A DNA stretch of 14,416 bases, from assembly GCA_938039345.1 (NCBI GenBank), contig CALHVB010000025.1, forward strand, positions 1 to 14,416. The letters run 5' to 3'. Source of the DNA: an uncultured Sediminicola sp. Its GTDB lineage: Bacteria > Bacteroidota > Bacteroidia > Flavobacteriales > Flavobacteriaceae. The position numbers were made by a program, and so were the translations under genes. Of this stretch, positions 4,505 to 13,982 are shown piece after piece; the stretch's first letter is position 1, and each line of letters opens with the position of its first letter. Below the pieces are notes generated by a model. It did not search any database and was not told the DNA's origin. It saw only the letters and a program-made list of their open reading frames with translations.

Positions 4505-5224
4505 ATGAAAAAGAATAACATATTAATAATCGTTTTTTTATTTGCTATATCTATAGGATATGCACAATCAACTTCAACTTTTTTTACAAAGGCAGATACA
4601 TTTTTTAATACTTATGTAAAAAATGGTAAAGTAGACTATAAAGGAATAAAAAGTAACCCGGCTTTATTAAAAGAGCTGGTAAGTTTAGCAGAAGGAGTAT
4701 CGGTTTCTAAAGATAATGCAGCAGAATATCAGGCTTTTTGGATTAACGGATATAACCTTTCGGTTATAAATAATGTAATTAATAATTACCCTTTAAAAAC
4801 ACCAACAAGTAAAGCTGGTTTTTTTGATAAAATTAAACATAATATAGGAGGTAAAAGTATTACATTAAATGATATAGAAAATAAATTACTTCGCGGTAAT
4901 TTCTCTAAAGAAGCACGTTTTCATTTTGTGTTAGTATGTGCAGGATTAGGGTGTCCACCTATAATTAATAAAGCGTATAAGCCATCTACTTTAGAAGCTC
5001 AATTACAAAAGCAAACCAAGTTAGCCTTAAATGACCCTAAGTTTATTAGAGTAAATAAAAATAAGGTGCAAATATCTCAGATTTTCGAATGGTATACAGG
5101 AGACTTTACTCAAGGAGGTAAAAAATTAGTAGATTACATAAATAAATATAGAACAGAAAAATTACCAGAAAAAGCTAAAGTATCTTACTATGCTTATGAC
5201 TGGACATTAAACGAATTAAAATAA
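4505..5224 (+). CDS. Secreted DUF547 domain protein
   Basis: A 239-residue protein with a clear signal peptide (MKKNNILIIVFLFAISIGYA, cleavage near 20-21), so it is probably periplasmic. The rest is one DUF547 domain. It has the early 'GKVDY' motif (41-45), a WINGYNLSVINN segment (79-90), and the family core H140-F-V-L-V-C145-AGLG-C150-P, with the conserved His and Cys residues expected of the family. IFEWYTGDF (193-201) and the terminal YDWTLNE (231-237) follow. DUF547 has no settled biochemical function; the conserved Cys/His make a thiol-based or metal/metalloid-binding activity conceivable, which is inference. The ATG is preceded by an A-rich leader without Shine-Dalgarno, normal for Bacteroidota. 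A paralogue with the same core is at 12912-13982. An outer-membrane barrel gene follows after 32 nt and is probably co-transcribed. Confidence 0.88.
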   Translation: MKKNNILIIVFLFAISIGYAQSTSTFFTKADTFFNTYVKNGKVDYKGIKSNPALLKELVSLAEGVSVSKDNAAEYQAFWINGYNLSVINNVINNYPLKTPTSKAGFFDKIKHNIGGKSITLNDIENKLLRGNFSKEARFHFVLVCAGLGCPPIINKAYKPSTLEAQLQKQTKLALNDPKFIRVNKNKVQISQIFEWYTGDFTQGGKKLVDYINKYRTEKLPEKAKVSYYAYDWTLNELK

Positions 5225-6184: not shown

Positions 6185-7186
6185 ATGAAAAAATTAGGAC
6201 TTCTTTTTTTGTGTATGTTTCAGTTATCTTGCTCTAGTCAGGTACAAGAAAAAATAAATGGAGTAAGTTTTGTTGCTTCGCCAGAAAAAGCAAAACAAAA
6301 AAATATTGATGCATTTGTAAAAGTAAATGCCAATTATGCAGCTATAATGCCTTTTGGTTTTATACGAACTATAGATTCTCCTAATATTGTATTTGATACC
6401 GAAAGGCAATGGTATGGTGAAACAAAAAAAGGAGCTAAGCAGTATATAGAATTACTTCATAAGAATAATATACAAGTAATGCTAAAGCCTCAAATATGGA
6501 TATGGAGAGGAGAATTCACAGGTACATTGCAAATGAAAACAGAAGAAGATTGGGTAGCTCTAGAAAAATCGTATACTAATTTTATAATGGCGTATGCCGA
6601 TTTAGCGCAAGAAACTAATACCCCTATTTTATGTATTGGAACAGAGTTAGAGCAATTTGTAAAGCATAGACCTAAGTATTGGGAAAAACTTATTGTGGAA
6701 ATTAAACGTATTTATAAGGGGAAGTTAACTTATGCAGCTAATTGGGACGAGTATAAACGAACTCCTTTTTGGAAAGCTTTAGATTATATAGGTATAGATG
6801 CTTATTTTCCTTTATCTGATAAAAAAACACCTACGGTATCAGAATTAAAAGATGGTTGGTTAACTCATAAGCAAGCAATAAAAGAATTATCTATAACAAA
6901 TAATAAGCCTGTTTTATTTACTGAATATGGATATAGAAGTACAGATTATAATGCCAAGAAACCTTGGGCGGTGGACAGACATGAAAATCTGGTTAATCTT
7001 GTTGCGCAATCAAATGCAACTAAAGCTATATTAGAAGAGTTTTGGAAAGAAGACTGGTTTGCAGGCGGTTTTGTATGGAAATGGTTTATAGCTAAAGAAA
7101 ATGCCGGAGGAGAAAAAGACAACCGTTTTACTCCGCAAAATAAACCAGCAGAAAATATTATAAGAGAATATTATAAAGAAAACTAA
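6185..7186 (+). CDS. GH113-type glycoside hydrolase (beta-mannanase-like TIM barrel), lipoprotein
   Basis: A 333-residue protein. The N-terminus MKKLGLLFLCMFQLSC-SS suggests a lipoprotein with Cys16 as the anchor, although the lipobox (Gln at -3) is not ideal. The mature part is a GH clan A (beta/alpha)8 domain close to GH113: 'INGVSFV' (24-30), 'KVNANYAAIMPFGF' (46-59), 'VMLKPQIWIW' (98-107), 'ILCIGTELEQF' (148-158) with Glu154 as likely acid/base, 'YIGIDAYFPL' (201-210), and 'PVLFTEYGYRS' (242-252) with Glu247 as likely nucleophile. Characterised GH113 members cleave beta-1,4-mannan; the substrate here is not proven. No SusC/SusD pair or regulator of a polysaccharide utilisation locus accompanies it. 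It starts 49 nt after the barrel gene and is followed 1 nt later by another lipoprotein. Confidence 0.82.
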   Translation: MKKLGLLFLCMFQLSCSSQVQEKINGVSFVASPEKAKQKNIDAFVKVNANYAAIMPFGFIRTIDSPNIVFDTERQWYGETKKGAKQYIELLHKNNIQVMLKPQIWIWRGEFTGTLQMKTEEDWVALEKSYTNFIMAYADLAQETNTPILCIGTELEQFVKHRPKYWEKLIVEIKRIYKGKLTYAANWDEYKRTPFWKALDYIGIDAYFPLSDKKTPTVSELKDGWLTHKQAIKELSITNNKPVLFTEYGYRSTDYNAKKPWAVDRHENLVNLVAQSNATKAILEEFWKEDWFAGGFVWKWFIAKENAGGEKDNRFTPQNKPAENIIREYYKEN

Positions 7187-7976: not shown

Positions 7977-9269
7977 ATGAAAACCGTTTGTAATTCGCAT
8001 GAAACCATGTTAAGGGGCTTTTTTTTATTTTTTTTATTTTTCACTTTCTTTATAGGTCTTTCTCAAGACCCTATTATAGCTAATGTTAAAATTCAGGGGG
8101 CAAAGCGCATAAAAATTTCTTTTATTGAAAAAATAATAAAAGTAAAATCAGGAATGGTTTTAGATATGGTACTTGTTGAGGAAGATATAACACGCTTAAA
8201 ACGCTTGCCATCTGTATCTAACGCTAGTTTTAAGATTTCTCTAACAGAACAAGGTCTGTATAATGTATTCTACAATATTCAAGAAAATTTTACTTTAATA
8301 CCTTTTGCAAATTTGTACACTTCTTCGAATGATGAATTTGCTTTTAGAATAGGCTTAGAAGAATTTAATTTTTTAGGAAAAAATATTAAATTAGGTGCAT
8401 TTTATCAGTACGATATTTTTAGTTCTTACGGTATAAATCTTAGAGCTCCATATTTGTTTAGTAATAAATTAGGTGTAGCTATTAGTCATACTAATTTAAA
8501 AACCCAAGAACCCGTATTTTTTGAAAATGCAACGGCTGATTATAAATATAATAATAACAGTATAGAAGTTTTAGGCTTGTATGAGCTTAATTTTAAAAAT
8601 AGAGTTGAATTTGGTGTAAATTTTTTTACTGAAGATTATAGATACATAAGGGGAGCTACTGATCCAAATGTACCTCAGGCCTTAAAAGTTAATAAACATC
8701 TGTTTAAATTTATTTATAATTATAATAATATTGAATACCAATATCAATATTTATCGGGCTTTAGGAGTACTTTAAATTTTCAATATGTAGGTAGTTCGGA
8801 TACTAGTTTGCCAGAATTTTTAATTGGCTTTAATGATTTTGAATACTTTAAAAGAATAGGTGAAAAAGGAAATTTTGCAAGTCGTTTGCGCTTAGGTTTA
8901 GCGAGTAATATTAATACGCCTTTTGCACCTTTTTCAGTAGATAATAATTTAAATATTAGAGGTGTCGGTAATTTAATAGACAGAGGCACAGGAGCTATTG
9001 TTTTAAATACCGAGTACAGGCATACAATGGTAGATACAGATTGGTTTGTATTACAAAGTAATATTTTTATAGATAGCGGTACTTGGAGAAATCCTGGAGG
9101 TACTTTTAAAGACTTTACGGATGTAGAAAATATTCGTGTATATCCTGGTTTAGGCCTAAGATTTATGCATAAGCGTATATTTAATGCTGTTTTTAGAATA
9201 GATTATGGCTATGGAATAACTAGAGATTCTTCTAAAGGTATTGTGTTTGGAATAGGACAATATTTTTAG
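7977..9269 (+). CDS. Small Omp85/BamA-like outer-membrane protein with a single POTRA domain
   Basis: A 430-residue protein. After a signal peptide (hydrophobic core 12-27, cleavage near LSQ 28-30) comes one POTRA-like beta-alpha-alpha-beta-beta domain (about 33-105: 'IIANVKIQGAKRIK', then 'EEDITRLKRLPSVSNASFKI'). A barrel of about 325 residues follows, ending in ...GIGQYF. The Omp85 hairpin signature is present as NIRGVGN (326-332, counterpart of the V-R-G-F/Y motif), followed by DRGTGAIVLNTEYRH (335-349). Canonical BamA has five POTRAs and about 800 residues, so this is a reduced relative, probably inserting or exporting specific clients. The start could be the ATG at 8007 instead, giving the more typical signal MLRGFFLFF. 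A weak TTG (7922) N19 TACTTTAC (7944) promoter candidate upstream fits either start. The pseudo-amidase gene follows after 51 nt. Confidence 0.8.
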   Translation: MKTVCNSHETMLRGFFLFFLFFTFFIGLSQDPIIANVKIQGAKRIKISFIEKIIKVKSGMVLDMVLVEEDITRLKRLPSVSNASFKISLTEQGLYNVFYNIQENFTLIPFANLYTSSNDEFAFRIGLEEFNFLGKNIKLGAFYQYDIFSSYGINLRAPYLFSNKLGVAISHTNLKTQEPVFFENATADYKYNNNSIEVLGLYELNFKNRVEFGVNFFTEDYRYIRGATDPNVPQALKVNKHLFKFIYNYNNIEYQYQYLSGFRSTLNFQYVGSSDTSLPEFLIGFNDFEYFKRIGEKGNFASRLRLGLASNINTPFAPFSVDNNLNIRGVGNLIDRGTGAIVLNTEYRHTMVDTDWFVLQSNIFIDSGTWRNPGGTFKDFTDVENIRVYPGLGLRFMHKRIFNAVFRIDYGYGITRDSSKGIVFGIGQYF

Positions 9270-9320: not shown

Positions 9321-10217
9321 ATGAATATTGTAATTATTAGAGCTTTTATGTGCTCTATCTTTTTGTATAGTTGTATTATACAAGGTCAGGATTCTTTAAA
9401 AACAGTTATAGCTAAAGATGGAGATGGTATTTTTTCTATTTTAAAAAGAGAGGGTATTATAGGAGATAAATATTATGTTGAGTTTGTAGAGCTAAATAAG
9501 GATAAAATAAATAATGGTACTGTTTTACAGGTAGGTGAAACATATAAAATACCAAATGCTCCGGATTCTTTTAAGAATATGGGAAGGAAAATAGTACTTT
9601 CTAAGGGTATAGATTTTCCTATTTTTACTGAAGATATAAGGAGTTTAAAAAGAAAAGGAAAAGTTTTAAAGAACACTATCTATTATTTAATTTTTGATGA
9701 GTTTGATGGTGATAATTTAAAACTGATAAAGAGTAAGACGCAAACTAATGATGTTATTGCAAAAGCAATTGCTAAAGAACTTATGCAACAAGGAGCAATA
9801 GTTTTTGTGTTTGATTATAATAGTAGTGAAACACAATATTTAGGAGATTATGTAGATGCAATTAATAAGAGGTACCTTAAATATGCAGGGCAACATCAAA
9901 GGTTGCTGTTTGTTAATTTAAATCAAGAGGCTTTAGATGAGGATACATCGGTTTCTGTATCTCATTATGAAAAAAGTAAAGAAGGAGCTCAGTTTGCAAA
10001 CAGCTTAGAAAAGATGTTCTATGCTAAAAATGTAAAACTTATATCTTCAGAAAAAAATGTATTTACAGATAATGTTAATTTATACTTAGCAAAGAATGCT
10101 ATGCCAACGATGACCTATGTTTCTCTTGTTACTAAGGATATAGATAACAAAGATTTTGTGAATAAAATTACCAAAGGCATAAAAAACGATTATTCTAAAC
10201 TTTCTTTTGAAGAGTAA
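9321..10217 (+). CDS. Pseudo-amidase: LysM-like domain plus Amidase_3 fold lacking catalytic residues
   Basis: A 298-residue exported protein. The signal is cleaved either at IQGQ-D (24) or as a lipoprotein at L-Y-S-C18. A LysM-like domain (about 26-79, VIAKDGDGIFSIL ... LQVGETYKIP) is followed by a domain that aligns along its length with the downstream N-acetylmuramoyl-L-alanine amidase. Shared landmarks are T-I/V-YYL (119-123), IAKEL (150-154), QRLL (193-196), SHYEKSK (214-220) and MPTMTYV (261-267). All zinc and catalytic positions are changed: the GHGG His is Glu127, the helix Glu is Gln141 or Lys139, the second His is Asn199, and the catalytic Glu is Ser268. The reading frame and hydrophobic core are intact over the whole length, so this looks like a maintained non-enzymatic protein, perhaps binding peptidoglycan or regulating its neighbour. 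Annotation as an active amidase would be wrong. Confidence 0.8.
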   Translation: MNIVIIRAFMCSIFLYSCIIQGQDSLKTVIAKDGDGIFSILKREGIIGDKYYVEFVELNKDKINNGTVLQVGETYKIPNAPDSFKNMGRKIVLSKGIDFPIFTEDIRSLKRKGKVLKNTIYYLIFDEFDGDNLKLIKSKTQTNDVIAKAIAKELMQQGAIVFVFDYNSSETQYLGDYVDAINKRYLKYAGQHQRLLFVNLNQEALDEDTSVSVSHYEKSKEGAQFANSLEKMFYAKNVKLISSEKNVFTDNVNLYLAKNAMPTMTYVSLVTKDIDNKDFVNKITKGIKNDYSKLSFEE

Positions 10218-10286
10218 AACATATCTTCTTTAATTAATTGTAAGCCTATACTTTTTTAAAGATATTTGCTAAAATTTATAGTTTTC

Positions 10287-11309
10287 ATGATTTTTTTTAA
10301 GCGTTTATCATTACTTGTATTCATTGTTTTTACAGTACAAGTAAAGGCACAAGATACATTACAAACTGTTGTTGCAGAAAAGGGAGATGGTATAATATCG
10401 TTATTGCGAAAACAAAAATTAAATCCCTATGATTATTTTGATGACTTTGTAAAATTAAATTCTAAAAACCTTAGAGATAGTGTTCATTTATACGCTGGAA
10501 AAAAGTATATAATACCAAAAGTAAAACAGAAAGATACTGTTAAAAGCGGTGTAAAAGATAATAAATTAAAAGAAGGTAAAGAGTATGTTATTTTTGGAAA
10601 AAAGCATGCGCTAGTAACTTCTAAAAGTAAAAAATTAGCAGGCACGGTTTATTATTTAGTATCTGGGCATGGAGGGCCAGATCCAGGAGCAATAACAAAC
10701 TATAGGGGTAAGGTTATAGCAGAAGATGAGTATGCTTATGATGTAACATTGCGTTTAGCAAAAGAACTCCTTTCTCATGGAGCAAAAGTACATATTATCG
10801 TTAGGGATCCCGATGATGGAATTAGGGATAGTAGAGTTTTAAGCATAGATAAAGATGAGGTTGTTTATCCTAAAAAAATAATTCCGTTAAACCAAGTGCA
10901 GCGTTTAAAACAGCGAGTAGAAGTTGTAAACGATTTGTATATAAAGAATAAAGGCAAGTATCAACGATTAATTGTAACGCATGTAGATAGCCGTAGTAAA
11001 GGGCAAAATATAGATGTTTTCTTTTACCATCACGAGAAAAGTAAGAATGGAAAAAGGTTAGCAGAAAGTATTCATACTACTTTTCAGAAAAAATATAAAA
11101 AATATCAACCTAATAGGGAATATAAAGGAACGTTTGGAGATAGGCGTTTATATATGGTTAAAAATACCTTGCCCGCAGTTGCTTATATAGAAATTGGCAA
11201 TATCAAAAATAAGAAAGATCAAAAACGAATTTTAGATCCAGAAAACAGACAAGCTTTAGCTAAATGGATTAGTGAAGGCATTTTATTAGATTATGAAAAT
11301 AAAAAGTAA
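10287..11309 (+). CDS. N-acetylmuramoyl-L-alanine amidase (Amidase_3) with N-terminal LysM-like domain
   Basis: 340 residues from the ATG at 10287, which gives a standard signal peptide (MIFFKRLSLLVFIVFTVQVKA-QD). A TTG seven codons upstream (10266) is in frame but less likely. A LysM-like domain (about 25-78: VVAEKGDGIISLL ... YAGKKYIIP) precedes the zinc amidase domain (about 118-340). The metal ligands are His128 in SGHGGPDPGA, Glu146 or Glu148 in AEDEYAYDV, and His232 in VTHVDS. The catalytic base is Glu302 in YIEIGNI. Such enzymes cleave the bond between MurNAc and L-Ala in the periplasm and act in cell separation and wall turnover. The gene lies 69 nt after its degenerate paralogue and ends in a bidirectional terminator that begins inside its stop codon. 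The LysM-like module probably positions it on glycan strands. Confidence 0.9.
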   Translation: MIFFKRLSLLVFIVFTVQVKAQDTLQTVVAEKGDGIISLLRKQKLNPYDYFDDFVKLNSKNLRDSVHLYAGKKYIIPKVKQKDTVKSGVKDNKLKEGKEYVIFGKKHALVTSKSKKLAGTVYYLVSGHGGPDPGAITNYRGKVIAEDEYAYDVTLRLAKELLSHGAKVHIIVRDPDDGIRDSRVLSIDKDEVVYPKKIIPLNQVQRLKQRVEVVNDLYIKNKGKYQRLIVTHVDSRSKGQNIDVFFYHHEKSKNGKRLAESIHTTFQKKYKKYQPNREYKGTFGDRRLYMVKNTLPAVAYIEIGNIKNKKDQKRILDPENRQALAKWISEGILLDYENKK

Positions 11310-12217: not shown

Positions 12218-12925
12218 TTATGTAGTAATATTTTTTTTATAGTATAGGTACAAGTCTTGGGGGCTAGCTCCCAAGAATTTTTTAAAGTGTATAATTCCAA
12301 AATGATATTGTAATTTTAATGTACCTAATTGTTCGTATTTTCTGGCTGAGGTTATTACTTTTTGTGGAAGCACTTTAAAATTACTTGCTTTATAAAGTCT
12401 GGAAATAAACTCGGAATCTTCATAGATTATATAATCTTCGTTAAAACCTTTAGTTTGTTTAAACAATTGTTGTGTTATAAATAACGATTGATCGCCACCA
12501 CGGCAAGATTTATGGTTAATTCTGGTAAGCCATCCAAAAAATTTTAAGAAGTAATTAGAGCTATTAAATTTCATTCTAAAACATCCGGCATATTGTTTTC
12601 TATTTACAGCTTGTATAATAGCACTATCAAAGTTTTTTGGGGGAAAAGTATCTGCATGTAAAAAGTATAAAATACTTCCTTTAGCATGTTTTGCGCCAAG
12701 ATTCATTTGTTTAGCTCTGCCTTTTTCAGCTTCAATAATTGTTACATTATAGTTAGCGGCAATTTTTTTAGTATCGTCTGTACTACCGCCATCAATAACT
12801 AAAATTTCCTTTATGTTTTTTGATTTAGAAATTGGTTTTAAATAAGCTAATAAATCTCCAATACAGCATGCTTCATTAAGTACCGGAATTATGATGCTTA
12901 TATCTTTAAGCTTATTTTCTTTCAT
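12218..12925 (-). CDS. TIGR04283-type glycosyltransferase (arsenosugar biosynthesis-associated)
   Basis: 235 residues from the ATG at 12925. An in-frame start 16 codons earlier would only add sequence overlapping the DUF547 gene. The GT-A domain shows ISIIIPVLNEA (9-19), VIDGGSTDDT (43-52), the FLHADT metal motif (89-93 region), C-RGGDQSLF (141-149) and IYEDSEF (167-173). The tail is the subfamily's: SARKYEQLGTLKLQ (193-206) and FLGASPQDLYLYYKK (217-231). This pattern is that of the TIGR04283 family, named for its repeated occurrence near the radical-SAM protein ArsS and ArsM in arsenosugar loci. Its exact reaction is unproven. A probable ArsM C-terminus lies about 1.2 kb upstream on the same strand, supporting the assignment. 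The gene overlaps the end of the DUF547 gene by 14 nt, so they are translationally coupled. Confidence 0.83.
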   Translation of the reverse strand: MKENKLKDISIIIPVLNEACCIGDLLAYLKPISKSKNIKEILVIDGGSTDDTKKIAANYNVTIIEAEKGRAKQMNLGAKHAKGSILYFLHADTFPPKNFDSAIIQAVNRKQYAGCFRMKFNSSNYFLKFFGWLTRINHKSCRGGDQSLFITQQLFKQTKGFNEDYIIYEDSEFISRLYKASNFKVLPQKVITSARKYEQLGTLKLQYHFGIIHFKKFLGASPQDLYLYYKKNITT

Positions 12926-13982
12926 TAAGGCTCCAGTCATATTTATTGTAACTAATTTTTGCTTCTGTTGCAATGGGGGTATTAGTGTATTTGTTAATGT
13001 AATTTATAAGGGAGCCATTGGTAGTGAAATCTTTTTTGTACCATTTAAAAATTTCTGATAATTCAATAGAATTTTCAGAGATATTATTACGGCTAATATC
13101 ATTAACAAAATCTTTGGTAACCTGTTCTAGTTGTTTCTCCATAGTAGCAGCAAGAAACACTCTGTTTAATAGTTTAGGGCAAGAATAAGAAGCGCAGTTA
13201 ATAGCAAAATGAATACGTGGCTCATTCATTTTACGTAAAATTTTATGCTCAACATCTCCTAAAGAAATAAGTTCTGAGCCTATTTTTACAATTTTTTTAC
13301 CCCATGGATTTTTTAAATCTTTAATGCTTTTAGTGGGGTAATTATCTAAAATGAGCTTTACTGTTGCTGCATTATATAGGTTAATATAATATGCAAGCTT
13401 TTCATTTTTTGTCCAGTTAGGCATTGGAGAGTTTTTTGCTAAATAATTTAGATATGTATTTAACTCATTTGTGTTTTTCTTAAAACTAGCATAATCTACA
13501 TTTCCTTCTTTAGATACATATTGTATAAGTAATTTATTCCATGCAGAATGGTTTATTATGGGTTGTGTTTTATGGGTTTCTTTTTTGGCAACAATTTCCT
13601 TTTTTGTAATTGTTCTTGCTTGCTCTTTTATTATAGGCTTTTTAGTAATTTCCTTTATTTCTGTTGTAATAGAATCTGTAAGCTTAAGTGTTTTTTGCGT
13701 TTCCTTTGCTATCTTAATGTCTTTTGTTGTTGTAGCTTTTTCTTTAGAACTATTTTTTTCAACGGTTTTTATTTTTAGGGGAGCAACTGGTTTTATAGCT
13801 TCTGTAGTATCCGTAATTTTTTTAGTAACTGCTATTTTTTGTTGTTCTTTAAGGGGCGTGCGGATAGAATCCTTCGCATTTACAACGACCTTAGGCGTTT
13901 TGTTATTATCATTATTATTTGGGGAGCTGCTTTTACAGTTGGTAATAGCTATGAAAGCAAATAGTAAAAATAATTTATTCAT
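12912..13982 (-). CDS. DUF547 lipoprotein with long Lys/Thr-rich linker
   Basis: A 356-residue protein. The signal MNKLFLLFAFIAITN-C16 is followed by Lys-Ser-Ser-Ser, suggesting a lipoprotein. Residues about 17-140 are a low-complexity, Lys/Thr/Glu/Ile-rich, probably extended linker. Residues about 145-356 form a DUF547 domain: 'EGNVDYASF' (159-167), 'AYYINLYNAATVKLIL' (197-212), the His/Cys core H258-FAIN-C263-ASYS-C268-P, 'IFKWYKKDF' (311-319) and terminal YDWSLNE (348-354). The core and ending match the plus-strand DUF547 protein at 4505-5224, but that one has no linker. The linker could let the domain reach across the periplasm from a membrane anchor (inference). It is the first gene after the ArsM terminator and overlaps the glycosyltransferase start, so it most likely serves the same pathway. 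Several open frames on the opposite strand here reflect the biased linker composition. Confidence 0.85.
   Translation of the reverse strand: MNKLFLLFAFIAITNCKSSSPNNNDNNKTPKVVVNAKDSIRTPLKEQQKIAVTKKITDTTEAIKPVAPLKIKTVEKNSSKEKATTTKDIKIAKETQKTLKLTDSITTEIKEITKKPIIKEQARTITKKEIVAKKETHKTQPIINHSAWNKLLIQYVSKEGNVDYASFKKNTNELNTYLNYLAKNSPMPNWTKNEKLAYYINLYNAATVKLILDNYPTKSIKDLKNPWGKKIVKIGSELISLGDVEHKILRKMNEPRIHFAINCASYSCPKLLNRVFLAATMEKQLEQVTKDFVNDISRNNISENSIELSEIFKWYKKDFTTNGSLINYINKYTNTPIATEAKISYNKYDWSLNERK

Follow-up and report, generated by a model that had tools for sequence, protein, structure and literature searches.

The amidase gene pair and its island

The window, the whole stretch of 14,416 nucleotides that was analysed, contains two co-directional genes separated by a gap of 69 bp. 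The upstream gene (9321–10217, forward strand) encodes a secreted-looking protein of 298 amino acids, here called the dead copy, made up of a LysM-like N-terminal domain (9390–9569, forward) and an Amidase_3 fold lacking the zinc ligands (residues 116–296; 9666–10208, forward). The downstream gene (10287–11309, forward) encodes the live amidase, of 340 amino acids when counted from the ATG at 10287, which was used here in place of the TTG at 10266 in the list of open reading frames. It consists of a LysM-like domain (10341–10520, forward) and an Amidase_3 catalytic domain (10656–11282, forward) that passes Pfam PF01520 (78.2 bits against a cut-off of 27, E 1e-21), with the ligands H128, E146, E148, H232 and E302 present. 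The Pfam search found no match to PF01520 at E ≤ 1 in the dead protein and no match to M23 (LytM) at E ≤ 1 in either protein. The two proteins are paralogues (26% identity, E 3e-29; profile E 4.5e-72), and the tandem of a live amidase and a ligand-less copy, seen in an earlier note on this DNA, was confirmed.

The start of the dead protein resembles a signal peptide, with a hydrophobic stretch before Q23 (read by eye) and a helix at residues 2–21 in the structure model, and this suggests that the protein is secreted. The assignment of the N-terminal domain to LysM is weak. When six of these domains were searched with Pfam LysM (PF01476), one matched, below the cut-off (E 0.071, 13.5 bits against 20.9), and no structural match to LysM was found by profile; the order strand-helix-helix-strand in the model of the dead protein fits LysM. 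A scan for operon signals gave 26 promoter-like sites (23.5 expected) and three terminator-like sites (1.0 expected). It found no terminator-like site in the gaps on either side of the dead gene, and one weak promoter-like site in the gap between the dead and live genes.

Upstream, a gene for a POTRA-domain protein (7977–9269, forward; POTRA at its cut-off, 21.3 bits) ends 51 bp before the dead gene, and its product is likely to be an outer-membrane protein. Farther upstream is a gene for a GH113-type glycoside hydrolase (6185–7186, forward; GH113, E 2.1e-41), possibly a wall glycosidase partner. Its product also resembles a gene-transfer-agent TIM-barrel family, and many relatives have this gene in their amidase island. 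The island is flanked, here and in many relatives, by two look-alike proteins on opposite strands (4505–5224 and 12912–13982), which we take to be members of the DUF547 family. The POTRA protein of the window shares 75% identity (dS 0.92) with that of its relative L001 (2595–4001), while the other genes compared are 91–98% identical (dS 0.10–0.21). This looks like replacement by recombination and perhaps reflects surface variation. In two relatives (L113 in genome G346 and L140 in G629) the live gene occupies another position within the island, either at its far side or flanked by the POTRA and GH113 genes, and the dead gene remains at the GT2b end.

Loss of the active site and constraint on the dead protein

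In the dead protein of the window the ligand positions are occupied by Glu127, Lys139, Gln141, Asn199 and Ser268; the residue table given earlier for both proteins was exact on re-check. Across the family, none of 34 dead genes keeps both His ligands and 33 keep neither. Four of the five ligand columns fall at the variable end of the C-terminal domain (82nd–96th percentile of variability), and the second His column, at the 49th percentile, is mostly Arg, Asp or Asn. The structure model of the dead protein retains the Amidase_3 fold, the loss of which would, according to the earlier note, have counted against a pseudo-amidase. The model of the live protein was poor (pLDDT 54.6) and was left out of comparisons. 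PF01520 was matched at E ≤ 1 by 23 of the 44 members of the set A1, six of which are live proteins, so among the 38 dead proteins weak matches number no more than 23, probably 17.

A tree of 37 dead and 61 live rows, built by a quick method, unrooted and with long branches, placed a single split between the two (SH-aLRT 100). Repeated independent inactivation was considered and found no support, as this quick, unrooted tree puts every dead row on the same side of a single branch. The live family shares its two-domain architecture, island and origin with the dead proteins, but has all ligands and evolves more slowly. It also has a strongly conserved segment just before the second ligand His (approximately residues 181–215 in the numbering from the TTG; approximately 10806–10910 in the window) that is mostly absent from the dead family and may form a substrate or regulatory loop.

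Selection was estimated as dN/dS by the NG86 method. In genomes holding both genes, the dead gene gave 0.209 (window and L001), 0.116, 0.096 and 0.275, and values of 0.096 and 0.205 came from two further pairs with dS near 2; one pair was saturated. The live gene gave 0.056–0.08 in the same first four pairs and neighbouring genes 0.033–0.18, and the dead gene exceeded the live gene in all five pairs where both could be estimated. In genomes with the dead gene alone the values were 0.065, 0.113 and 0.091, and 0.112 at dS 2.2, with one pair saturated. Constraint on the dead gene is thus present whether or not there is a live partner, though in paired genomes it is weaker than on the live gene. 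The prediction that dN/dS would be well below 1 was borne out (0.065–0.28).

The two domains are not conserved alike. In 231 pairs drawn from 22 genomes holding both genes, pairs that are not independent of each other, the dead proteins had a mean identity of 0.535 in the LysM-like domain and 0.343 in the C-terminal amidase domain, against 0.523 and 0.722, respectively, in the live proteins. The LysM-like domain was the better kept of the two in all 231 dead pairs but in only two of the 231 live pairs. In the dead family the LysM-like domain is therefore held at the level of the live proteins and the amidase domain is relaxed. In two of the three closest comparisons between dead-only genomes the C-terminal domain was slightly better kept than the LysM-like domain, which indicates that the inert domain matters there too.

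With ligands lost family-wide, a history that one origin fits, the fold kept and purifying selection, the claim that a non-catalytic protein arose from a duplicated enzyme is supported, and the dead protein is firmly identified as a pseudoenzyme from the LysM-like/Amidase_3 amidase lineage.

Distribution of the dead and live genes

When live loci were scanned using one genome per species, the dead gene was immediately upstream on the same strand in 11 of the best 80 loci from 285 relatives (view limited to 5 kb). In a family draw of 397 genomes, the dead profile, which picks up live proteins as well, matched 84 at E ≤ 1e-5, and 16 of these have the dead gene. Eleven have an adjacent live gene, two have a live gene elsewhere (G346 and G156), and in three no live gene was found (G126, G092 and G170). 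The match in the remaining 68 was live-type, as called by motif within loci for 16 and by live-profile score or a known live locus for the others. Full-length dead proteins score at most 190.5 bits against the live profile; of 48 genomes checked with it, 44 reached at least 453 bits and four had partial matches (178–365 bits) called live-type by score density. The dead gene thus accompanies a live-type match in 13 of 81 genomes of the draw, a search that scored five candidates per genome and may have missed a few second copies. Across all the data, it is in the locus or genome of 24 of 108 live rows (some rows come from one genome), and most genomes with the live gene are without the dead gene. 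Whole genomes searched with the dead profile were those of the family draw, of three genera and of a few further entries; the live profile matched seven of 246 genomes in an order draw at E ≤ 1e-20.

An open frame is present in 34 dead genes, one of which (L070) is cut by the contig end. In 22 of the 24 loci holding both genes with the dead gene open, the dead gene immediately precedes the live gene on the same strand; in L097 the two are 490 bp apart. In genome G156, where the live gene is far from the island, the dead gene is broken up into two frames that overlap (L114, 3893–4573 and 4522–4968). No remnants of the dead gene were detected at E ≤ 0.05 in 8486 fragments taken from before the live gene in loci lacking a dead gene, a search run without a positive control, and either the losses were clean or the gene was never present there. 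Given its presence in only 24 of the 108 live rows and its division into two frames in one genome, the dead gene is dispensable. The earlier note had regarded absence or frameshift of the gene in close relatives as telling against its proposal. The gene is indeed absent from most relatives and split in one, but dN/dS well below 1 and the Amidase_3 fold stand on the other side.

Besides the window, 33 genomes or loci carry the dead gene with an open frame, and in 10 of these whole-genome searches did not find a live paralogue. Among 11 genomes of the genus of G170, eight have the dead gene with no live gene found (G170 and G631–G637), two have both (G629 and G346) and one has neither (G630). 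In G632, a dead-only genome of approximately 5.7 Mb, the locus is on a contig of 5,689,803 bases, a near-complete chromosome, so an incomplete assembly is not the reason there; the other dead-only assemblies may be incomplete, although the island is contiguous in all 10. In each of the 10 the dead gene keeps its position in the conserved island of envelope genes, with the POTRA gene on one side, the GT2b or outerLP-like genes (which elsewhere stand after the live gene) on the other, and no contig break in between. Presence of the live gene on the dead tree takes four changes by parsimony, at least two of them forced by starred branches.

Possible roles of the dead copy

As the dead copy of these marine flavobacteria is under selection and in some species outlasts the working enzyme, it probably has its own task at the cell wall. 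We give an even chance to the reading that it is an ancient secreted pseudoenzyme, wall-associated, with a non-catalytic role of its own. The protein would be exported to the periplasm and would bind peptidoglycan via its LysM-like domain, with the inert amidase-fold domain serving as a scaffold or docking surface. Such a non-catalytic factor at the wall could mark or occupy sites there or, alternatively, tie the wall to the outer membrane together with two island products, the POTRA protein and the GH113 enzyme. In genomes that have the live amidase, the dead protein may also tune it through their common wall-binding module, but this would not be its sole role. A further, tentative reading is that a secreted pseudo-amidase family of flavobacteria has taken the place of its own live paralogue, with a non-catalytic function in the envelope that involves peptidoglycan binding. 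In some lineages the enzyme would have been dropped and the dead copy kept beside the POTRA gene, under strong selection, as a wall-tethering or site-marking factor.

The earlier note had proposed that the dead copy controls the adjacent live paralogue, a role that the results bear out in part. We consider a dedicated regulator of this kind, whether activator, inhibitor or heteromeric subunit, unlikely, even though the dead gene directly precedes the live one in most loci with both (22 of 24; 69 bp apart in the window), the proteins share an architecture, and the identities of dead and live proteins across 22 genomes are correlated (0.344, with none of 2000 permutations as high). This correlation did not clearly persist when one other island gene at a time was controlled for (16, 15 and 12 genomes), the partial correlation falling to 0.06–0.22, a level that 146–615 of 2000 permutations reached. 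Correlation of the dead gene is stronger with the control genes (0.46–0.61) than with the live gene (0.12–0.32). The live gene correlates weakly with the control genes (0.12–0.29), which leaves the test low in power on the live side. The pattern fits vertical inheritance with the island, without a clear sign of pairwise coevolution. Most live loci are also without the dead gene. Moreover, as the dead gene persists in 10 genomes without a live paralogue and is under purifying selection there in four close or moderate pairs (dN/dS 0.065–0.113), regulation of the neighbour cannot be the whole account.

A target that is always present would be another, larger and stronger-scoring Amidase_3 enzyme (frames of 404–486 amino acids), presumably AmiA/B/C-like, found in all 24 genomes searched with PF01520, including the 10 dead-only genomes. 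Linkage, co-variation and structural support for its regulation by the dead protein are all absent, and a universal enzyme gives no presence/absence signal; we regard this as quite improbable. That the old fold has gained another enzymatic activity would agree with purifying selection and retention of the fold, but it is very improbable, as most ligand columns drift and no C-terminal residue is newly invariant. The 13 residues invariant in the dead proteins are invariant (nine) or nearly so (four) in the joint alignment with the live family, and a new active site was rejected for want of newly invariant residues. That the gene is a decaying, functionless pseudogene is barely credible and is ruled out as a general account by low dN/dS (0.065–0.28), deep divergence, long retention and 34 open frames (L070 being cut by the contig end), despite its frequent absence, its two frames in G156 and its dN/dS above that of the live gene in all five pairs.

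Dead wall hydrolases are already known, EnvC and CwlM among them. CwlM of mycobacteria is described as a homologue of the AmiA/LytC amidase family without key zinc-coordinating residues, the essential function of which is regulatory rather than enzymatic; it is cytoplasmic, is phosphorylated by PknB and activates MurA (PMC4946905). It resembles the dead protein in having a degenerate zinc site in an Amidase_3 fold. However, the dead protein has a signal-peptide-like start (by eye) and a LysM-like domain, has lost its zinc site almost wholly and stands in tandem with a live amidase to which it is paralogous. Among proteins that control wall amidases without catalysis, the best known are dead LytM proteins. 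EnvC, NlpD and ActS are degenerate LytM activators of AmiA/B/C, and activators of the EnvC type displace an autoinhibitory helix (PMC10268282). They are likewise dead wall hydrolases of the envelope, and act on amidases, but their domains are LytM (M23) and the dead protein has an amidase fold. Retention of a dead paralogue beside a live enzyme is also seen in trypanosomatid deoxyhypusine synthase, where both are reported to be essential and to assemble into a heterotetramer (PMC3663545); the dead amidase copy, in contrast, occurs without the live one.

In the open-licence PMC literature we recognised no description of a secreted pseudo-amidase family or of such a dead/live pair, and found no secreted pseudo-amidase that outlasts its own paralogue. 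To our knowledge, control of envelope peptidoglycan hydrolysis in Bacteroidota has been little studied. A secreted dead amidase in natural genomes with and without its live paralogue offers ready comparisons for whether a dead wall hydrolase regulates, binds or tethers. If the dead copy did replace the live paralogue, a wall-cutting enzyme would have given rise to a wall-tethering or site-marking factor.
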